Positions 19,781 through 41,545 of a stretch of 64,000 nt of DNA are shown here, in pieces (the first letter of the stretch is position 1; each line of letters begins with the position of its first letter). The position numbers were made by a program, and so were the translations under genes. Below the pieces are notes generated by a model. It was not told the DNA's origin. It was given only the letters and a program-made list of their open reading frames with translations, and made no database searches. The stretch covers positions 1,860,001 to 1,924,000 of the forward strand of contig NZ_CP015732.1 of NCBI RefSeq assembly GCF_001750145.1, read 5' to 3'. The stretch is from Arthrobacter sp. U41 (GTDB lineage Bacteria; Actinomycetota; Actinomycetes; Actinomycetales; Micrococcaceae).

Positions 19781-19929
19781 CTGTCGTACGTGCTCCGGCA
19801 ACCACACTGTGTGCCGGGCCGGACACCGTGAAAGGCCTTGAGTTCGGTTTCGATCTGCTAGGGAGAGGGACCGGACTATTGCCTGGGAGCGCCCGCGTTC
19901 GTGCCTGCAGCCTTCTGCAGCGCGGCGCC

Positions 19930-20220
19930 CTCCTCGCCGCCGGGACCGATCCTGAGGCCATGTACGAAGACAAGGCCTCGGGAAAGGACGACGACCGGCC
20001 ACCGCTGGTCTCCTGCCTCAAAGCCCTGCGCCACGGCGACACCCTGATCGTCTGGAAACTTGACCGGCTCGGCAGTGACCTCCGCCACCTGGTCAACATC
20101 GTCCACGACCTGACCGAACGCGGCATCGGCTTGAAAGTCCTCACCGGCCAGGGCGCGGCCATCGACGCCACCGCCGCATCCGGCAAGCTCGTCTTCGGAA
20201 TCTTCGCCGCCCTCAGATAG
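19930..20220 (+). pseudogene. Serine resolvase/invertase, 5' fragment
   Basis: Encodes the middle of a resolvase catalytic domain: EDKASGKDDDRPPL, LRHGDTLIVWKLDRLG, and GKLVFGIFAAL, the standard order for small serine recombinases. The catalytic Ser region (YARVS) is not recognisable, and the frame stops right after FAAL where the family continues with an E-F-E-R block, so the fragment is cut at both ends. The 3' junction runs directly into a thiC remnant on the other strand. A C-terminal resolvase fragment lies 3 kb further on (23228-23385). Confidence 0.8.
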
Positions 20221-20445
20221 ACCTTCCCGCCGGATTCGCGGAACTCGGTGGACTTGGCCTCCATTCCTGCGATGGCTTCCTGTTCGGACATGCCCCCGAA
20301 CTGGTCGCGGATGTCCTGGGAGAGCCGCTGGAGCAGAACTTCGGTCCGCACATCGAGCAGAAGTGCGCGGTCTTCGCCGGCTCGGCGCTTGGCCAATTCG
20401 GCCAGGGTGTCCAGTTCGGCAAACTGGGCGGCGTCGTTGGCGCCC
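20216..20445 (-). pseudogene. thiC remnant (phosphomethylpyrimidine synthase), rearranged
   Basis: Reading the minus strand gives ANDAAQFAELDTLAELAK, a middle segment of ThiC, joined directly to AEPAKTAHFCSMCGPKFCS, which is the C-terminal iron-sulfur motif CxxCxxxxC. About 150 residues between these blocks are missing. Just after the last Cys the frame shifts by the loss of one base, and the normal ThiC end (SQDIRDQFGGMSEQEA through ESGGKVYL) continues in another frame. The piece then stops at the junction with the resolvase fragment. It cannot encode active ThiC. Confidence 0.78.
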
Positions 20446-20572
20446 CTTGAGTCCGCCCATAAATAGGTCGAACGCTGCCAGGCAAGGAGGGCCGTCCTCG
20501 TCTGGGGGATCCCGCCGACCCTCAACTAGCGGCACCAGATAATTACGCAAAGTTTTTGTAGCTCAATTTTGC

Positions 20573-20591
20573 TTAGGTGATCCTAATCTAA
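20573..20591. promoter_or_regulatory. DtxR/IdeR-type iron box
   Basis: TTAGGTGATCCTAATCTAA matches the actinobacterial iron-box consensus TTAGGTTAGGCTAACCTAA at about 16 of 19 positions (counting the central C/G as equivalent) and keeps the half-sites TTAGGT and CTAA. It ends 13 bases before the GTG start of the fusion gene, where bound repressor would block transcription. Strongly suggests iron-dependent repression by a DtxR/IdeR protein. Confidence 0.72.
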
Positions 20592-20604
20592 TACCATCGT
20601 CCGG

Positions 20605-23175
20605 GTGACCACGCAGCTTGATTTCTTGCGGGTGCCCTTTGCCGCGGATCTTGCGAGCCACGGGGACAGTCCCGCCATTCTCACCGACAACGTCGCAGTG
20701 ACCTACCGGGAGCTGGCGGAGCGCGTCGACGATCTTGCCGTCCGGCTCGGCACCGAACGGCGCCTCGTCGCGCTGACGGCAGCCAACAACCTCGAGTCGC
20801 TCGTGGCCTATCTGGCGGCACTGGCAGGCGGGCACCCCCTTATCCTCCTGCCCGAGGACAAACCTGCAGCCCTGGAATCCCTTGTTGCTGCCTATGACCC
20901 CGATGTGATTGTGCGGTCAGGGAACGGGCGCACTGTCCTCGAGGAACGCCGGCCGGGCACCCGCCACGAGCTGCACCCGGATCTTGCCCTTTTGCTTAGC
21001 ACGTCCGGGTCCACGGGCTCGCCGAAGCTTGTTCGTCTCTCGCATGCGAACCTGCAATCCAACGCCGAGTCTATTTCCGAGTACCTGAACATCGGCCCGG
21101 ACGACCGTGCTGCGACGACCCTGCCGATGTCCTATTGTTACGGGCTGTCGGTAATCAACAGCCACCTGCTCCGAGGTGCGGGACTGGTCCTCACCGACCT
21201 TTCCGTCGTCGATCCGTGCTTCTGGGAGCTTTTCCGGAACCGCGGTGCGACAGCATTCGCCGCCGTTCCCTACACCTTTGAACTCCTGGAACGGGTGGGG
21301 TTCGCGGGTATGGAGTTGCCCAGCCTGCGCTACGTCACCCAGGCCGGAGGCCGGCTCGCACCGGAGATGGTGCGACAGTACGCCGGGCTCGGGCGCCGGC
21401 AGGGCTGGGATCTTTTCGTGATGTACGGCCAGACGGAGGCCACGGCCCGGATGGCTTATCTGCCTCCTGAACTCGCGGCCACAGTTCCCGGGGCCATTGG
21501 CATCCCCGTCCCCGGAGGCTCACTGCGCATCGACCCTGTTCCCGGCCTGGAGCATGGTGAGCTTGTGTTCACGGGCCCAAACGTCATGCTCGGCTATGCC
21601 GAGACGGCCGAGGACCTCGGAAAGGGCCGGAGCATCGATGAGCTCCGCACCGGCGATCTGGCCCGGCAGCACCCCACAGGAGTCTACGAAGTGGTCGGGC
21701 GCCGCAGCAGGTTCGTCAAAATCGTCGGCCTGCGCGTTGACCTCGGGCAGGTGGAGCGGATCCTGGCCGACCTCGGCGTGCAGGCAGCCAGCGCCGGGAC
21801 CGACGACGGCCTCGTCGTCGCGGTCGAGGGCGACCACGACACTCGGCTGCTGGGCAAGGTTCTGTCCCAGGGATTGGGTCTGCCCCGTGCCGCTCTGCAG
21901 GTTCACGCCGTCGAACATCTGCCGCGTCTGGCCACGGGTAAACTGGACTATCAGGCTGTCCTGGCGCTGTCCCGGCCCGAACCCGTGCACGCGCCTGCGG
22001 ACGGGGCCGCCGCCGGCCCCGGCAGCGTCCGAAGGATTTTTGAGGACGCTCTGGAGGTCGCCGACATTGCCGACGGGGACACTTTTGTCTCGCTGGGCGG
22101 GGACTCGCTGTCCTACGTGGCAGCATCGGTCAGATTGGAACAAGCCTTAGGCCATCTCCCGCCGGGTTGGCACGTGACGCCTGTCCGGGACCTGGAACCG
22201 CGGCCCCGCACTGCTCCGGCCCGGAAGCGGCGGCGGTTCTTTGCGCCGCTCGAAACGAGCATCGTGCTGCGGGCCGTGGGGATCGTCCTGATCGTCAGTA
22301 CACACGTCGGTTTATTCAGTTGGCAGGGCGCGGCGCACGTGCTCATGGCCGTGGCCGGGTACAACTTCGCCCGCTTCCAGCTCTCGGGGGAGCGTTTCCA
22401 GCGCCTGCGGCGGCAGCTGAACAGCCTAGCCAGAATCGTCGTCCCCAGCATGGCGTTTATCGTTGTCGCTTATCTGATCACCGACAACTACACGCCTGCC
22501 AATATCCTGCTCCTAAACGCCATAGTTGGGCCGGAGACAGTGACCACACAGTGGCACTTCTGGTTCATCGAAATACTTGTCTACCTGCTCCTGGGAATGA
22601 CAGCCCTGCTGGCCGTTCCGTGGGCGGACCGCGCCGAGCGGCGTTTCCCCCTGCTCCTTCCACTGGCCCTGACCGGAGCCGGACTGCTCACCCGCTACGA
22701 ACTGGTGAACCCGGGAGTGCCGCACACGGCGCCGGCCCTCTGGCTCTTCGCGCTGGGCTGGGCCATTGCACGGTCCCGGACGGTAGCCCAACGATGTGTA
22801 GTCTCAGCCATTGCGGTACTCACCGTACCCGGGTTCTTCGAAAACGTGACCAGGGAATGCACGCTCCTAGCCGGGATCCTGGTGCTCATCTGGCTGCCCA
22901 GCATCCCGGTGCCGAAGGGCCTCCGCCGACTCACCGTGGTGTTAGCCAGTGCCTCCCTCTACGCGTACTTGGTCCACTGGCTGGTCTACCCGCCCCTGGC
23001 CGGGATAAGCCCGGCACTGGCCGTTGGGGCCTCGCTCGCTGCAGGGGCAGCGTACTGGGCGCTGTGCATGTGCGTGGTGAACGCAGCCACCCGCCGACTG
23101 ACCCCGTCTAAGAAATCCCACAAACGAGTTCCCCCCAGCCTTCTCCCGAACCGCTTGACCGGTTCACAGGGCTAG
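20605..23175 (+). CDS. NRPS-like fusion: adenylation domain, carrier domain, membrane acyltransferase domain
   Basis: 856 aa. Residues 1-470: AMP-forming adenylation domain with A3 motif LLLSTSGSTGSPK (129-141), YGQTE, the TGDL motif, and the A10 Lys in TGKLDY (Lys446). Residues about 475-535: peptidyl-carrier domain with phosphopantetheine Ser501 in GGDSLS. Residues about 545-840: roughly ten hydrophobic segments resembling acyltransferase family 3, including LRAVGIVLIVSTHVG and WHFWFIEILVYLL. It would activate an acid, load it on its carrier and pass it to an acceptor at the membrane. GTG start with no ribosome site, so possibly leaderless. An iron box sits just upstream. Stand-alone gene; substrate unknown. 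Confidence 0.85.
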   Translation: MTTQLDFLRVPFAADLASHGDSPAILTDNVAVTYRELAERVDDLAVRLGTERRLVALTAANNLESLVAYLAALAGGHPLILLPEDKPAALESLVAAYDPDVIVRSGNGRTVLEERRPGTRHELHPDLALLLSTSGSTGSPKLVRLSHANLQSNAESISEYLNIGPDDRAATTLPMSYCYGLSVINSHLLRGAGLVLTDLSVVDPCFWELFRNRGATAFAAVPYTFELLERVGFAGMELPSLRYVTQAGGRLAPEMVRQYAGLGRRQGWDLFVMYGQTEATARMAYLPPELAATVPGAIGIPVPGGSLRIDPVPGLEHGELVFTGPNVMLGYAETAEDLGKGRSIDELRTGDLARQHPTGVYEVVGRRSRFVKIVGLRVDLGQVERILADLGVQAASAGTDDGLVVAVEGDHDTRLLGKVLSQGLGLPRAALQVHAVEHLPRLATGKLDYQAVLALSRPEPVHAPADGAAAGPGSVRRIFEDALEVADIADGDTFVSLGGDSLSYVAASVRLEQALGHLPPGWHVTPVRDLEPRPRTAPARKRRRFFAPLETSIVLRAVGIVLIVSTHVGLFSWQGAAHVLMAVAGYNFARFQLSGERFQRLRRQLNSLARIVVPSMAFIVVAYLITDNYTPANILLLNAIVGPETVTTQWHFWFIEILVYLLLGMTALLAVPWADRAERRFPLLLPLALTGAGLLTRYELVNPGVPHTAPALWLFALGWAIARSRTVAQRCVVSAIAVLTVPGFFENVTRECTLLAGILVLIWLPSIPVPKGLRRLTVVLASASLYAYLVHWLVYPPLAGISPALAVGASLAAGAAYWALCMCVVNAATRRLTPSKKSHKRVPPSLLPNRLTGSQG

Positions 23176-23227
23176 TGCTCAAAGTCATCGTCCCGGAGTG
23201 CAAGGAAGCTAATATCTCTCTGTATAC

Positions 23228-23385
23228 AGCACCCTGAAGCGGACGGCACAGACAGTCGTCGATCCGACGAAACTTTCCTACGCCGCGCACCTGCGTGACC
23301 AGGGGCTCTCCATCTCGCAGATCGGTAGGCAACCGGCATCACCCGCTCCAGTCTCTACCGTCATCTGCCGCTCCGGCCACCAGCG
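23228..23385 (+). pseudogene. Serine resolvase, C-terminal helix-turn-helix fragment
   Basis: Reads VVDPTKLSYAAHLRDQGLSISQIGR, the usual DNA-binding tail of a small serine recombinase, then shifts frame and continues TGITRSSLYRHLPLRPPAT. Same strand as the catalytic fragment at 19930-20220, and the two together cover most of one resolvase except its ends and the E-helix, so they may be the two ends of one broken gene. Confidence 0.68.
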
Positions 23386-23815
23386 ACGTTGTCGCCGAGA
23401 ACCGGCAGAACGCCTGAGGGAACGGCCTCGGCGTGGCCTCCGTTTGCCCAGAAGCCGAGCGAGAGATCCAGCAGGATGAAGTTTCCGTCGTCAAGGCCGT
23501 TCCTGGCCACCCGGCGCAGAAAGTTGACGTCCATCAATTTCCTCCCGTACCGGGTGTCCTTCCCGGTACCGCGAGCACAGACGATGGCGCAAGCCGGTTC
23601 AGCCAACCGGCTTGCCCTGGCTTCGCGCTAATGGTGTTCGTGCTTTCCCTCTGAATCCCGGCGGCGCTGGCCCACCGTGCGTATCTTCTGCCAGGAAGGT
23701 GCTGCTTGGGGGGCCAAGATCACGCGCAGCTGTAAGGTCTTCCCTGGAAAAACCGTCCGGGAACGGGGGCTTCCGGCCCATGACAAGTCAACCGCGGGTT
23801 GGGAGACTCGGCTAA
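23386..23815. other. Gene-free stretch between resolvase remnant and SRPBCC gene
   Basis: Open frames exist on both strands at 23361-23631 (about 80 codons each) but none has a ribosome site or recognisable family. The minus-strand frame (containing GLDDGNFILLDLSLGFW) looks the more protein-like and may be a remnant. No RNA gene seen. Confidence 0.4.
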
Positions 23816-25374: not shown

Positions 25375-25416
25375 ATGTCCAGTCCAGTTTTGAGTGCCGT
25401 AGGCCAAGATGGTCCT

Positions 25417-25809
25417 ATGAACAGTCCCGGACCGCGTTCCGGTGGACCGACCCCTCGACGGTCGTTCACCCCAGTGCAGAAGCTTGAATATTTGGCCTCG
25501 TACGAGGCGGCGTGCCAAGGCAACGAAGGCGGCGCGTTCCTGCGCCGCGAAGGCCTGTATTCATCCCAGATGACTGAATGGCGCCGGCTCCGTGACGCTG
25601 GCGTTTTGGCGGGCAAGAAGCCCGGGGAAACAATCGGGAAACTGTCGGCGGACCAGGCTGAGATCGCGCGGTTGCGCCGCCAGCTGGGGGTGAGTGAGAG
25701 CCGGTTGAAACGATCCGAGGCAGCCCTGGGAATCATGGAGAAACTCTCGGCGTTCTTAGAGAACGCCATTCAGGAATCACCGGACGAGCCGAAGTCCAAG
25801 AAGAACTGA
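25417..25809 (+). CDS. IS3-family transposase OrfA
   Basis: 130 aa from ATG 25417 (an upstream in-frame ATG at 25375 is possible). RRSFTPVQKLEYLASYEAA is the HTH_Tnp_1-type DNA-binding start, followed by LRREGLYSSQMTEWRRLRDAG and a leucine-zipper-like stretch IARLRRQLGVSESRLKRSE. The stop TGA overlaps the ATG of orfB (TGATG), the usual IS3 layout in which a frameshift or reinitiation joins A and B. The gene itself appears intact. Confidence 0.85.
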   Translation: MNSPGPRSGGPTPRRSFTPVQKLEYLASYEAACQGNEGGAFLRREGLYSSQMTEWRRLRDAGVLAGKKPGETIGKLSADQAEIARLRRQLGVSESRLKRSEAALGIMEKLSAFLENAIQESPDEPKSKKN

Positions 25810-26176
25810 TGGCCGCCTACCACGGCCTGCGCCAACAACAGGTCCCCACCCGGCGGGCGGCCTCCCTGACCGGCGTCTCACGCACCACGGTTTACCGCAA
25901 GATCTCACCGCCCCGGGAGGCGGCGGCGGTGACGCCACCGAACAAGCTCAGCCCTGCCGAGCGGGCTGCGGTGTTGGCGGTGTTGAACGCCCCCGAGTTC
26001 GTGGACCTGGCCCCGATGCAGGTCTATGCGAAGCTCCTGGATGCGGGCGTCTATCTGGGCTCATTGTCAACGTTCTACCGGGTGTTGGAGGAGAACAAAC
26101 AGGTCAAGGAACGCCGCCGCCTGGCCAAGCACCCTCCCCGAACTCGTGGCCACCGCCCCGGGCCAGGTGCTGACGT
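25809..26176 (+). pseudogene. IS3-family transposase OrfB, 5' part
   Basis: Begins MAAYHGLRQQQVPTRRAASL, with the HTH_21-type region APMQVYAKLLDAGVYLGSLSTFYR. Near 26143-26149 an extra base in a C-run shifts the frame: the expected HPPELVATAPGQVLT is found one frame over. At 26176 the gene is cut by the RIT element. Removing 26177-29570 joins it exactly to the downstream part (VLT-WDITKL). Two independent lesions make the transposase inactive. Confidence 0.85.
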
Positions 26177-26263
26177 GTTATGCCGACGTTGTGATTATGC
26201 CGATGTTGGTCTGCGATCCCAGGTTCCAGGCGGTGGACGGGGTGAAAAGGTCGGCATAATCAC
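26177..26263. repeat. Left terminal inverted repeat of the RIT element (87 bp)
   Basis: Identical over 87 bp to the reverse complement of 29454-29540. It begins GTTATGCCGACG and contains an internal pair, GTGATTATGCCGA near its start and TCGGCATAATCAC at its inner end, which look like recombinase core sites. The last codons of the third recombinase gene overlap its inner edge. Confidence 0.92.
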
Positions 26264-27252
26264 AGCATCGCGAGGAAGGCCAGGACGGTGTCGGGGGGCT
26301 GGTAGCGCACCGTAGCCGCGATGCCGGGTGGGGTGACTTTCGCGATCGCTTCCTCCTTCACGGTCATGTCGGCGTGGAGGTAGATGTTTGTCGTGAAGAT
26401 CTGTTCGTGGCCGAGCCAGAGAGCGATGACGGTGGTATCGACGCCGGCGTGCAGCAGCCGCATCGCGGCGGTGTGGCGCAGCGTATGCATGGTCACGTGT
26501 TTTCCGACCAGCGAGGGGCAGGACGTTGCAGCCGTGGTGATGGTGTGGTGGATGCGGTGCTCGATCGCGTCACGGCTGAGACGTCGGCCAGTGCTGGTGG
26601 TGAACAGCGCGGCATCGGCGGGGCCACTGTGTTCGACGATCCATTCATTCATGACGGTGACGGTGGCTGGCAGCAGCGGTGTGCGGCGTTCTTTGCGGCC
26701 CTTGCCGAGGCAGTGGACGTGCGCGCCGACACCGGTGTGGACGTCTGCGATGGTGAGCCCGATGATCTCGCTGATGCGCAGTCCGGTCTGGATCGCCAGG
26801 GTGAACATTGCATGGTCGCGGCGGCCGGTGCGGGTGTCTTGGTCGCAGGCGCGCAGCAGTGCATCGGCTTCGCTGGGGTCAAGCCAGGTGACGATGTTGC
26901 GGTGCATTCTCGCGGTCGGGATCGCCAGGACGCGTTGGATCACTTCGGCATGCTCGTGGTGGCGCAATGCGGCGTAACCGAACAAGGAGTGAATCGCGGC
27001 TAGGCGGGCGTTGCGGGTGCGGAGGCTGTTGCCCCGAACTTCCTCCAGATAGTGGAGGAACCCGGTGATGGTGTCGGCATCAAGATCGCTGATTTCCACC
27101 AGTGAGGGCGTCTTGTCTTTCAGATCGCAGACGTAGCCGAGAAGCAACGTGAACGTATCGCGGTAGGCCGCGATTGTGTTGCCGCTGGCCTGGCGCTGGG
27201 TGACCAGCCGGTCGGTGAAGAACGCTTGCAGCAGCGGGGCGAGACTGCTCAT
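26260..27252 (-). CDS. RIT element tyrosine recombinase, third gene
   Basis: 330 aa integrase-type protein. N-terminal SAM-like core-binding domain to about residue 110; catalytic domain with Arg I in TGLRISEIIGL, Lys in GKGRKERR, the H-x-x-R box HTLRHTAAMRLL, and the final LGHEQIFTTNIYLH with the Tyr nucleophile. The start overlaps the end of the second gene by 4 bases (ATGA). The position as third gene and the size fit RitC of RIT elements. Confidence 0.88.
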   Translation of the reverse strand: MSSLAPLLQAFFTDRLVTQRQASGNTIAAYRDTFTLLLGYVCDLKDKTPSLVEISDLDADTITGFLHYLEEVRGNSLRTRNARLAAIHSLFGYAALRHHEHAEVIQRVLAIPTARMHRNIVTWLDPSEADALLRACDQDTRTGRRDHAMFTLAIQTGLRISEIIGLTIADVHTGVGAHVHCLGKGRKERRTPLLPATVTVMNEWIVEHSGPADAALFTTSTGRRLSRDAIEHRIHHTITTAATSCPSLVGKHVTMHTLRHTAAMRLLHAGVDTTVIALWLGHEQIFTTNIYLHADMTVKEEAIAKVTPPGIAATVRYQPPDTVLAFLAML

Positions 27253-28184
27253 GATTCTGCCTGTTCCCGGGTGTTCGCGGCATCAAGGCGGGCGGCAGCG
27301 TGAGCGAGCAGTTCGGGAACGGCGCTCAGATACCAGTAGGTATTCGCCGGATCGGAATGGCCCAGATAGATCGACAGGGCGGGCATCTTCGCGGCAACAT
27401 CGGCCCCGTCGCGATACCAGCCCAGCAGCGTGTTCACCGCGAACGTATGCCGCAGGTCGTGCATCCGTGGCTGCCGCGCCGCAGTGCGTAGTCCTGCGGC
27501 AGTAGAAGCGTGCACCCAGTTATCGCGAACAGTTGCGTATTTCAACCGTTCGCCGTCTGCGTCGGTGAAGAACGCTGGCCTGCGACCGTGGTGCTGGTCA
27601 TCGCGCCAGTGAGCATAGCGTTCGAGTGCGGCAGTGGCGGTCGGGTGGAGCGGAACCAGCCGTGGGTCGCGCCCCTTTCCCCGACTGATCAGCAGCACTC
27701 CGGCATCCAAATCGGCGCTGTCCCTGTCCAGTGCGAGGGCCTCCCCGACCCGTAGTCCTGTGGCCGCCAGCAGCGCGAACAACACCGGGTAAGTCTGCGC
27801 CCGACTCCTGCCCTCCAGGGTGGCGGCTGCGCGGATCACCGCCGTGATTTCAGCGGAACAATATATGTAGGGACCCTGACGATGCACGGGGCCGGCGAAG
27901 ATCCCGCGGGGCGGAACCTCGTGGATCGGGTTCAGGGCGTGCATGTAGTCGGCGAACCCACGGACGGCGGTCATCCGACTCGACGCCCGGGTCCTCGGCG
28001 CGGCCGTCACCCCGGCCGGCGGGAGACTGCACCAAGTGATTGCCTCGGTGACGGTGATAACCTCGATGCCCGCGGCCGTGAGGTGTGTGGCGAACTGGTG
28101 CAGCAGGTGTTCAGGCCAGGTAAGGCGGGCGCCGAGCTGGCGGCGCAGGCGCAGATAATCGGTGACTTTCTCGTTCCAGGTCAT
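27249..28184 (-). CDS. RIT element tyrosine recombinase, second gene
   Basis: 311 aa. N-terminal region RQLGARLTWPEHLLHQFATHL is the core-binding domain; catalytic residues seen in TGLRVGEALALD (Arg I), GKGRDPRLVPL (Lys), HDLRHTFAVNTLL (His/Arg II) and LGHSDPANTYWYLS (His III and Tyr). Overlaps both neighbours by 4 bases, so the trio is one translationally coupled operon. Corresponds to RitB. Confidence 0.88.
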   Translation of the reverse strand: MTWNEKVTDYLRLRRQLGARLTWPEHLLHQFATHLTAAGIEVITVTEAITWCSLPPAGVTAAPRTRASSRMTAVRGFADYMHALNPIHEVPPRGIFAGPVHRQGPYIYCSAEITAVIRAAATLEGRSRAQTYPVLFALLAATGLRVGEALALDRDSADLDAGVLLISRGKGRDPRLVPLHPTATAALERYAHWRDDQHHGRRPAFFTDADGERLKYATVRDNWVHASTAAGLRTAARQPRMHDLRHTFAVNTLLGWYRDGADVAAKMPALSIYLGHSDPANTYWYLSAVPELLAHAAARLDAANTREQAES

Positions 28185-29401
28185 GACAGTTCACCCCCGG
28201 CCGGCCAGGGCCGGGCCAGCTCTCGTAACCGGATCACGTCCACCCGGGCGTAGTTCGCCGTCGTCGCGGGATCCTCGTGGCGGAGTACTTGCCCGATCGC
28301 GGCCAACGGCACTTCGGCGGCAACCATCGCCTCGGCCAAACTGTGGCGCAGCTGGTGGGGCCCGAATGTCTCCAAATCCGCGCGGGTGCAGGCACGGGTC
28401 ACGATCGCCCAAACCCCCGGAGAGCTTAGCCGTCGTCGCGGAGCACGGATGGTGCAGAACACTTCCCGCAAGTCCGCATCGGCCGGACGGGCATGCATCA
28501 GATAGTCCACCACCGCGGCGCCGACCTCGGCTGGCAGCGGAAGGCACTCGAGTTTGGCGCCCTTGCCGCGGATGAGGACCTCGCCGTGGCGCCAGTGAAT
28601 GTCTTCCAGCTGCATTCCGGCCACTTCCCCGGCGCGGAGGCCGAGCCGGGCTAGCAGGAGGATTACCGCATATTCGCGCCGCCCCGCAGCTGTGGTCCGG
28701 TCACAGCCCTGCAGGAGGGTGTCGATCTGTTCCGCGCTGGCGCCCAGCGGAAGAAGGGAGGGCAACGGTTCCCGAATCACCAGCGTCGCTCCGGTCAGAT
28801 CACGGTCGAGCTCGCCGGTGATGAAACAGAACCGCAGAAAGGCCCGCAGCGCATAGCCGAACTTTTTCACCGACGCAGGTGCCCGCCCCACTCCCTCCTC
28901 CAGCAACGCGCGCGTGACGTCGGCACCGCTCAACCCGGCGAACCCCTCGGACGGACAATGTGTCTTCAGGAACCGCCGGACCCGCACCACATAAGCTGAC
29001 GTGGTGCGCGCCCCGATACGACGCTCCGTCAGAAGGTAGCGCTCGAACCGGACCAGCACCGCCGGATCCTCCGGCGGCCGGGGTGGAGACGCTGCCTCCG
29101 CGGTGATCATCCCTGACTCAGCCAGCCAGCCCAGCAACGGGCGCAGCGCCTTGCGGGTGAACAACGCGGTATGTGTCGCTTTGCGTTCGGCGAGGAATGC
29201 ATCGACCTGCACCACCGTCAGATCGCCAAGGCGCATGCTTCCCGCCTCGAGCCACCGGCTCAGATGTGCCAGCAGATGGAACTGATTCACAATCGATGCC
29301 GGGGTGAATCCCAGCCGCAATAGTTCGGCCTTGAATCCCTCGGCGTGTTTCTGCAGCGGACCGTGGATCTGGACCCGGTCCGCTCGTGTTGTCGCTGTCA
29401 T
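28181..29401 (-). CDS. RIT element tyrosine recombinase, first gene
   Basis: 406 aa, the largest of the trio. It has an extra N-terminal domain of about 110 residues before the core-binding domain (PAVLVRFERYLLTERR). Catalytic residues: Arg I in LGLRAGEVAGM, Lys in RGKGAKLE, His/Arg in HQLRHSLAEAM, and LRHEDPATTANYARVD with the presumed Tyr. Transcription must start in the 52 bp between this ATG (29401) and the right inverted repeat. Corresponds to RitA. Confidence 0.88.
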   Translation of the reverse strand: MTATTRADRVQIHGPLQKHAEGFKAELLRLGFTPASIVNQFHLLAHLSRWLEAGSMRLGDLTVVQVDAFLAERKATHTALFTRKALRPLLGWLAESGMITAEAASPPRPPEDPAVLVRFERYLLTERRIGARTTSAYVVRVRRFLKTHCPSEGFAGLSGADVTRALLEEGVGRAPASVKKFGYALRAFLRFCFITGELDRDLTGATLVIREPLPSLLPLGASAEQIDTLLQGCDRTTAAGRREYAVILLLARLGLRAGEVAGMQLEDIHWRHGEVLIRGKGAKLECLPLPAEVGAAVVDYLMHARPADADLREVFCTIRAPRRRLSSPGVWAIVTRACTRADLETFGPHQLRHSLAEAMVAAEVPLAAIGQVLRHEDPATTANYARVDVIRLRELARPWPAGGELS

Positions 29402-29540: not shown

Positions 29541-29544
29541 AGGT

Positions 29545-29566
29545 GTTATGCCGACGTCGGCATAAC
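29545..29566. repeat. 22-bp perfect palindrome at the right end of the RIT element
   Basis: Arms GTTATGCCGAC (29545-29555) and GTCGGCATAAC (29556-29566) abut without spacer. Each arm equals the outermost 11 bases of the element, so this looks like two element ends joined head to head. It is separated from the 87-bp repeat by AGGT and is absent on the left side. Confidence 0.9.
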
Positions 29567-30184
29567 ACGTGGGACATTACGAAGCTGGCCGGGACCGTGA
29601 AGGGCAGATACTACGACTGCTACATGATGGTCGACATCCACTCCCGCTTCATTGTCGGCGCGCACGTGCACGCCAGCGAATCCGCGGTTCTAGCGGTGGA
29701 GATGATGAAGGAAATCTTCGGTATCCACGGCATCCCGCAGGTGGTCCACGCGGATCGGGGGACCTCGATGACGTCCAAGACTGTGGCCGCGCTGCTCTCG
29801 GACTTGGAGGTCACCCGGTCACATTCCCGGCCCCGGGTGAGCAACGATAATCCGTACTCAGAAAGCCTCTTCAAGACCATGAAATACGGGCCCATGTTTC
29901 CCGAACGCTTCGCTTCACTTGGCGATGCCAGGGCCTTTATCAGCGAGTTTGTGGACTGGTACAACCATCACCACCAGCATTCCGGGATCGGCTTCCACAC
30001 GCCCGCGAACGTCCACTACAGGCTCGCCGCCGGCGTCGCCAAGGAACGCTCCGCAACCCTCGCAGCAGCACGGGCGAAACATCCCAACCGCTTCACCAAA
30101 ACCACCGACCCCAAAATCCTGGCCCTGCCCGGGCCCGCATGGATCAACCAACCCAAGGAAAACACCGAACAGTCAGCCGCCTAA
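29567..30184 (+). pseudogene. IS3-family transposase OrfB, 3' part
   Basis: Integrase core (rve) with the first Asp in MMVDIHSRF, the second in VVHADRGTS and the Glu in NPYSESLFKTMKY, so the DDE triad is complete in this part. Ends with the typical FVDWYNHHHQHSGIGFHTPANVHY. It lacks its own start; the open frame would begin with bases from the RIT palindrome. Joined to 25809-26176 before insertion. Confidence 0.85.
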
Positions 30185-30972: not shown

Positions 30973-31190
30973 CCATGCCCGGAGCCCATTCCTCCCGGGG
31001 GGAAATCGAACTGCCCGAGCGTGCTACTGGAAAGGTTTAGCTCCTTTCGCTGCTGCCTGCTTCCGTACTGAGACCCGAGGGCCGTTAGATCACCCGCCCA
31101 CAGTGAGGTCCGCCCACATCTTCTTGGGCGATGGTGAACTTCTTGGCAGGCAATGTCTTGGGGCGGGCCGGCGCAGCCCGACTGCCGGAG

Positions 31191-32190
31191 CATGGGTATC
31201 GACGCCGGCAAAGCCCATCACCACTGTGTTGTGATCGACGCCGACGGAAACCGGCTGCTTTCACAGAAAATCCCCAACGACGAACCAGCCCTGCTCGGGC
31301 TAATCGCCAACTTACTCAAACTCGGGGACGGGGACGTGGTCCTCTGGGCAGGCCACAGACCTGAATCACGGGGGCCCGGCGCTGCTGATCGCGATGCTCG
31401 TCGCCCACGGCCAAAACGTCCTCTACATCCCGGGCCGGATTGTCCACCATGCCTCCCGCCTCTACGGCGGCGAGGGCAAAACCGACGCGAAAGACGCTGC
31501 CGTGATCGCCGACTAGGCCCGAATGCGCAAAGACCTCCAGCTACTGCGGCCAGGGGACGAGATCAGCACCGGCCTGCGGATCCTCACCGCACGGAGAGCC
31601 GATAAAGCCCCGGACCGGGTCCGGGCGATCAAACGACTGCAGGCCCAGCTGCTCGAATACTTCCCCGCGCTGGAGCGGGCCTTCGACTACAGCCGCTCCA
31701 AAGCCGCTCTGCTGCTGCTGACCAAACACCGGAGCCCGGACGGGATCCGCCGGACTGGCCAGACCAGGCTCCATGCCTGGCTGAAGAAACACGGCACCCG
31801 CTCGTCCGCCGCCGTCGCCAAGGCCGCCGTCGATGCCGCGTAATCCCAGCACACCACCGTCCCCGCCCAACACCTCGGGGAGATGATCGTCGCCGCCCTC
31901 GCACAGGAAATCATCACCCTCGACCAGGAACTCGCCGAGCTCGCTGCACTGGTCAGCGAGAAGGTCACCGAATACCGAGACGCCCAGACCCTGCTCAGCA
32001 TGCCGGGCTTCGGACCCGTCCTGGCCGCGGAGTTTCTGGACGCCACCGGCGGCGACCTCACCGTCTTCGGACTGCTGACCGGTTTGCAGGGGTCGCCGGA
32101 CTGGCCCCGGTGCCCCGGGACACCGGCAACCACCACCGCCCCCGGCGCTACGACAGGCGCCTGCTGCGCGCCTGATCCGCCTCGGGCAGC
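31191..32190 (+). pseudogene. IS110-family transposase, decayed
   Basis: Starts GIDAGKAHHHCVVIDADGNRLL, the DEDD-domain opening of IS110-family transposases. The frame is lost near 31355 (WAIDLNHGG expected), resumes as LLIAMLVAHGQNVLYIPGR, meets an in-frame TAG at 31514-31516 and a TAA near 31842, continues through SMPGFGPVLAAEFLDATGGD, and is shifted again near 32075. At least four lesions make it inactive. The non-coding bases upstream (31040-31190) could have held the bridge RNA of the element. Confidence 0.85.
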
Positions 32191-41457: not shown

Positions 41458-41545
41458 TGGCGGTGACGGTGGGATTTGAACCCACGTTGGCTTTCACCAA
41501 ACAACATTTCGAGTGTTGCACCTTCGGCCGCTCGGACACGTCACC
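41458..41545 (-). tRNA. tRNA-Ser (anticodon CGA), with encoded CCA
   Basis: Acceptor stem GGTGACG/CGTCACC, discriminator G, and CCA encoded at 41460-41458. Anticodon loop CTCGAAA gives anticodon CGA (reads UCG). A long variable arm follows, as expected for a type II tRNA, and the T-loop GGTTCAAATCC is canonical. Its 3' end faces the accessory region. Confidence 0.95.

Follow-up and report, generated by a model that had tools for sequence, protein, structure and literature searches.

An iron-boxed adenylation-carrier-acyltransferase fusion gene is a conserved genomic partner of FbpA-type ferric importers in actinobacteria

The window analysed here, a 64,000-nt stretch of the genome of the soil bacterium Arthrobacter sp. 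U41 (NZ_CP015732.1, positions 1,860,001 to 1,924,000), carries on its plus strand an ORF with a GTG start (20605-23175) encoding a protein of 856 aa. Pfam returned the domain order AMP-binding, PP-binding and Acyl_transf_3. The AMP-binding match covers residues 14-331 (E 1.7e-47) of an adenylation (A) domain assigned to residues 14-454 (PF00501; 20644..21966, plus strand), the PP-binding match defines a carrier (T) domain at residues 475-516 (PF00550, E 2.8e-6; 22027..22152, plus strand), and the Acyl_transf_3 match (PF01757) covers residues 554-812 and scores 33.3 bits, above the curated cut-off of 31, within a membrane acyltransferase domain of the TmAT/AT3 fold at residues 545-832 (22237..23100, plus strand). 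Residue conservation was assessed in 54 aligned sequences, namely the window's fusion and 53 from 80 relative loci. The signature of an NRPS-like A-T protein is present, with the A3 motif STSGSTGSPK, the A10 lysine (Lys446) and the attachment serine Ser501 (codon at 22105-22107, plus strand) all invariant or nearly so; Lys446 and Ser501 are unchanged in every one of the 54 fusions. An earlier first-pass annotation, made from the letters alone, had described an 856-aa fusion with an intact adenylation domain, an intact carrier site and an AT3-like C-terminal part. The AMP-binding match and Lys446 bear out the first of these, the PP-binding match and Ser501 the second, and the above-cut-off PF01757 match, together with structural matches to HGSNAT and GWT1, the third, so that a complete A-T-acyltransferase chain with an acyltransferase fold is strongly supported. 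For phosphopantetheinyl transferases (ACPS type), the genome gave two matches. As had been claimed, the 20 ORFs scanned between 18904 and 42766 (fusion gene counted in) include no other NRPS gene.

Comparison of the fold of the C-terminal helices gave the acyltransferases HGSNAT and GWT1 as the best matches, and the domain has the ten-helix TmAT fold. An unrelated transporter fold, which had been raised as the alternative, is ruled out by these matches. Other searches returned less: plain Foldseek with the C-terminal part against the PDB gave no match at E <= 0.001, Foldseek against viral models gave one nameless match (E 2.5e-4), the full-length model retrieved adenylation-type proteins only among the 50 matches listed, and NCBIfam gave no match on the C-terminal part. 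The R-x10-H motif of TMH1 (R556 and H567) is present in 54/54 sequences, as are, under the helix assignment made here, the SxxxY motif of TMH9 (S784/Y788) and the conserved Gly of TMH6 (G718). The fusion thus has the fold, R-x10-H and SxxxY in common with AT3/TmAT enzymes such as OafB, OatA, HGSNAT and GWT1, and presumably also acyl transfer at or across the membrane. It differs from them in lacking the Asp of the TMH1 DxxR motif (0/54) and in having Leu for Phe in TMH2 (register assigned here). According to the accessible text of PMC12423673, the AT3 protein OacB can do without this Asp and GWT1 lacks it; its absence was therefore not treated as defining. For the RxxR motif at the start of TMH3, R597 (49/54)-x2-R600 (54/54) and R610 (54/54) are candidates, in a register relative to the AT3 motif that is uncertain.

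A further difference would lie in the donor. In the accessible portion of a review of AT3 enzymes (PMC9558356), the donor reported for known members is acyl-CoA and not an acyl carrier protein, and the fusions covered are to SGNH and alanine-racemase domains, with no A-T fusion among them; the words "AMP-binding" and "non-ribosomal" are both absent from its main text. A carrier fused in cis suggests a donor other than acyl-CoA, which would here be the protein's own carrier-bound thioester.

Prediction of the adenylation pocket, a check proposed in the first-pass annotation, was carried out by distant alignment to LgrA and points to C178, Y179, S182, Y223, T245, A247, M273, A281, R282 and K446, each identical in 54/54 sequences except C178 (53/54). 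The pocket contains an Arg (R282), and the Asp235-type residue that binds alpha-amino acids is absent, its position being taken by C178; hence, we do not class the fusion as an amino-acid NRPS. Such a conserved pocket suggests that the A domain takes one small acid. NCBIfam named no substrate, as all 25 families listed of 81 fell below their own cut-offs.

Upstream of the gene, a pattern scan detected a DtxR/IdeR-type iron box, TTAGGTGATCCTAATCTAA (20573..20591), which agrees with the consensus TWAGGTWAGSCTWACCTWA at 16/19 positions (three mismatches) and ends 13 bp before the GTG, confirming the box proposed from the letters alone. No second match occurs in the window, and none arose in 100 shuffles. 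Genome-wide (4.79 Mb), the pattern occurs at just three sites with <= 3 mismatches (reversed control pattern, 0), and all three precede iron genes, namely the fusion, an SfuA-type operon and a Peripla_BP_2/FecCD/FecCD importer. The same annotation had suggested looking for the A-T-acyltransferase order with iron boxes in other actinobacteria, and for homologues that lack the box. Most of the relatives examined retain it at a similar place: at <= 4 mismatches and within 250 bp upstream of the fusion, it occurs in 58/80 relative loci, against 1.1 % of 2400 random segments from the same 80 loci. A chance match is ruled out by the shuffles, the genome-wide count, the reversed control and this conservation. 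The fusion lies behind an fbp operon in 16 of the 22 loci without a box at the fusion itself, and 14 of these 16 have one before fbpA; the two exceptions are L049, which has no box, and L071, which ends at a contig edge before fbpA. Taking all 18 loci with the fusion behind fbpABC, 16 carry a box before fbpA.

A -10-like element, TACCAT (TANNNT; 20592..20597, plus strand), adjoins the 3' edge of the box and ends 7 nt before the GTG. Of 49 relatives in which both box and start are present, 44 have a TANNNT <= 3 nt from the 3' edge of the box (background 1.2 %) and 34 have a spacer of 12-13 nt, while a Shine-Dalgarno-like core was seen in only 2/39 spacers. A simple sigma-70 consensus scan detected no promoter-like site at 20300-23800. 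This arrangement predicts a leaderless message, with a putative transcript start close to the GTG and a promoter that DtxR could cover. Iron control of the fusion gene is strongly supported by the conserved box and the -10-like element adjoining it. Two genes of the genome encode proteins with a DtxR/MntR-family Fe_dep_repr_C domain.

Full-length relatives occur in many actinobacteria. The protein search gave 6117 matches at E <= 0.001 among 7995 scored candidates, the best 120 of which are 812-879 aa long and at least 78 % identical. In genome contigs, 401 loci were found and the best 80 were analysed as the relative loci. A class-wide sample of 394 genomes contained 71 with a match at E <= 1e-60; five matches over the A domain only (G227, G242, G278, G308 and G460) were set aside, leaving 66 fusion genomes, among which G299 was retained on a match over residues 10-481 in a 958-aa frame. 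A sample of the family contained 20/149 genomes with a match, restricted to the A domain in two cases; for the genus of G436, which may be mycobacterial to judge from its many AMP-ligases, the figure is 54/148 at E <= 1e-150. In one relative (G105:C252:1466-3935), the fusion is split into two overlapping frames, A-T and AT3, which points either to two separate chains or to a frameshift, genuine or introduced by the assembly. Fusion matches with internal stop codons were seen in G050, G196, G260, G443, G560 and G622; these stops may represent decay or a natural end that was read through, the latter because the matches extend to query residues 838-854.

The first-pass annotation had the gene standing alone. 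Physically this is so; however, 27 kb upstream and 6.7 kb beyond the left edge of the window lies a separately iron-boxed ferric importer of the SfuA/FbpA type (minus strand, 6385-10227 of L121, G000:C1:1843000-1862000), making it probable that the fusion gene is not functionally alone. In this operon, genes for an SBP of the ferric-binding type and for a two-domain permease come before an ATPase-like ORF; among solved structures, the SBP best matches SfuA, YfuA and ferric-binding proteins related to them. The remaining iron box in the genome precedes a Peripla_BP_2 gene and two FecCD permease genes (minus strand, 4818-8142 of L122, G000:C1:1001000-1017000); a DUF4194/MksE-like gene lies close to this importer.

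Near the fusion, 24/80 relative loci encode an FbpB-type permease and 23/80 an SBP, upstream on the same strand in 21 and divergently in three; one representative of each upstream gene was annotated, giving a PF13416 SBP, a PF00528 permease and a PF00005/TOBE ATPase. We then fetched 40 of the 71 class-wide loci (hand-chosen, mostly full-length), together with about 8 kb of flanking sequence to either side. Both SBP and permease are in the locus in 29/40, comprising 14 operon-like upstream arrangements, seven divergent, five downstream on the same strand and three convergent. A box precedes the fusion in 24/40 and either the fusion or fbpA in 36/40; the other four, without a box at <= 4 mismatches before either gene, count against the reading proposed below. 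Twenty control regions of 18 kb, drawn from 15 genomes of this set and from three further fusion genomes (the present one included), contained no box, no SBP and no permease, with an ATPase match in two. The fusion appears often as a fourth-gene-like member behind fbpABC, and 15/34 operon loci offer a possible start codon with a 4-bp overlap at the fbpC stop. Clustering of neighbouring ORFs gave no further widespread partner besides FbpABC, with few representatives annotated and a simple gene caller that missed some genes and placed some on the wrong strand.

Co-occurrence was scored as a phylogenetic profile by searching the same 394 genomes with this genome's own SBP (E <= 1e-15; 120 genomes with a match). 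An FbpA/SfuA-type protein is present in 68 of the 71 genomes with any fusion match and in 66/66 once the A-only matches are excluded (Fisher p 4e-39 on all 71, uncorrected for relatedness); SBP matches go down to about 27 % identity, and for some fusions the match falls into two pieces. The best SBP lies <= 10 kb from the fusion in 49/66 genomes and further away or on another contig in 17/66. The reverse does not hold, as 52/394 genomes have the SBP and no fusion match, so that the importer can work without the fusion. Among the 46 genomes whose SBP shares >= 45 % identity with the query, six (G039, G198, G361, G404, G459 and G533) have no A-T-AT3 match, which makes the enzyme an importer accessory that is not needed everywhere.

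The linked SBPs themselves have a ferric character. A tyrosine pair (HYY) is present in 32/33 of them, the exception (L045) being truncated, and for the two SBPs tested, one linked and one from this genome, solved ferric-binding proteins are the best matches. NCBIfam matches for the three SBPs scanned all stayed below the cut-offs and were to phosphonate, thiamine, molybdate and sugar models. The SBP of this genome is 83 % identical to the SBP that shares an operon with the fusion in L060. On comparative-genomic grounds, then, the fusion is shown to be a conserved gene that bears iron boxes and partners ferric importers of the FbpA type. The earlier suggestion of a one-gene route for siderophore tailoring or lipid modification is unsupported as stated, since the fusion goes with these importers, and this link makes it more interesting than a lone tailoring enzyme.

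The links to iron and to the importer come from comparative genomics, whereas what follows on substrate, acceptor and product is inferred. We consider it fairly probable that the fusion is an iron-starvation enzyme acting with an FbpABC/SfuABC-type importer and that its product is a ferric ligand. When iron is low, DtxR would leave the box and the leaderless message would be made. The A domain would adenylate one fixed, common carboxylic acid, probably with a second acidic group, and load it onto the fused carrier at Ser501, whose arm would then reach in cis into the cytosolic mouth of the membrane domain. There, the R556/H567 site would hand the acyl group to an acceptor located at the membrane or on its far side. 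Most likely, this would yield a ferric ligand, either of low molecular weight or held at the surface, that would give up its Fe3+ to FbpA for import by FbpBC. FbpABC importers have been assumed to use free or citrate-bound iron and, to our knowledge, the iron source and ligand of the Gram-positive ones are poorly settled. Classical siderophores are a poor fit, as SBP_bac_6 and SBP_bac_8 account for only 27 and 19 SBP genes in siderophore clusters, against 6,023 for Peripla_BP_2, in the accessible text of PMC13293324. Excerpts of PMC6684656 describe a mycobacterial importer of the FbpABC kind as independent of known siderophores, which fits another ligand and, equally, free or citrate-bound iron. 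The importer in question, msmeg_3633-3635-3636 of Mycobacterium smegmatis, has an SfuB-like permease and is needed for low-iron growth without siderophores (PMC6684656, in part), and two of its genes go up under citrate (PMC10597346, in part). It is described as a three-gene operon, and the excerpts of both papers mention no A-T-AT3 gene.

Among the other explanations, the one that survives best, although we hold it unlikely, is that the iron-starved cell acylates an extracytoplasmic polymer or lipid, for example a cell-wall glycan, so that added acidic groups hold Fe3+ near FbpA or alter the envelope charge (compare D-alanine and DltABCD). The HGSNAT fold match and the coupling with FbpA-type importers are consistent with surface modification, as is the preference of AT3/TmAT enzymes for extracytoplasmic glycans as acceptors in most cases (PMC9558356 and PMC12423673, in part). 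Pairing with a single importer class is, however, tighter than envelope remodelling requires, and no glycan gene turned up among those representatives of recurrent neighbour clusters that were annotated. We regard it as improbable that the enzyme tailors a separately made siderophore, or a lipid. Parts of PMC9833829 report small molecules as targets of some standalone AT3 enzymes, and the genome has both the iron-boxed Peripla_BP_2/FecCD importer and one IucA/IucC-type siderophore synthetase gene (at 1403611). The latter, however, lies 477 kb from the fusion and has no iron box at <= 3 mismatches in the whole-genome scan, and the fusion pairs with FbpA-type importers instead.

It is very improbable that the target of acylation is the FbpA lipoprotein or the importer itself, as an activation step: the adjacency and the presence of FbpA in all fusion genomes would suit this, but the paired FbpA types are merely about 27-38 % identical to one another, so that a shared protein target looks unlikely, and the conserved pocket suggests one small acid. 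Mere iron co-regulation of two unrelated tasks would account for the 17 genomes in which fusion and importer lie far apart or on different contigs, yet it can hardly be reconciled with the 66/66 co-occurrence, the four arrangements, the possible 4-bp overlaps and the pairing with non-orthologous FbpA types.

Several known systems resemble the fusion in part. In DltA-DltC-DltB D-alanylation, an acid is activated, held on a carrier and passed on by a membrane transferase; the fusion would follow the same logic in one polypeptide rather than three proteins, with a TmAT domain where DltB is an MBOAT. Epsilon-poly-lysine synthetase-like proteins likewise have A-T domains followed by a membrane part, but in the fusion the C-terminal part is AT3 and the A domain is missing the amino-acid-binding Asp. 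Its genomic partner belongs to the FbpABC/SfuABC/FutABC class of ferric importers, and we know of no adenylation-carrier-acyltransferase partner gene in the classical systems of this class. Nor do we know of an earlier TmAT-type acyltransferase fed by a cis-fused carrier instead of acyl-CoA; if true, this would be a new donor logic for the TmAT superfamily. A literature search by title or abstract start, with subscription journals mostly outside its scope, found no description of an A-T-AT3 fusion, and none is given in the accessible text of PMC11481915, PMC12161575, PMC13293324, PMC7005843, PMC10597346 or PMC11052289. The iron-box control and the importer pairing point to a step of bacterial iron uptake that is still undescribed. 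More tentatively, this may be a widespread and undescribed actinobacterial mode of iron acquisition, in which the A-T-TmAT protein makes a new kind of ferric ligand, secreted or surface-held, from an acid of central metabolism, dedicated to FbpABC; we rate this bolder version as possible but doubtful. The question is readily testable, the full-length fusion being iron-boxed, often in the same operon as the importer and, in the 394 sampled genomes, never without an FbpA-type protein.

Finally, the surroundings of the gene in the window include recombinase genes and transposase-like pieces. Three adjacent, slightly overlapping tyrosine recombinase genes (26260-29401, minus strand), all with PF00589 matches, are flanked by transposase-like pieces on the plus strand at 25375-26315 (weak Pfam transposase and helix-turn-helix matches) and 29543-30184 (judged by eye); possibly, the trio interrupts an insertion sequence. 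The G+C content drops from about 70 % in the first 14 kb (1-14 kb) to about 58-67 % at 18000-42000, a stretch that holds a resolvase fragment (19828-20220), the recombinases and an IS110-like fragment (31153-31605), ends near a tRNA-Ser(CGA) gene (41458-41545) and is probably a genomic island.
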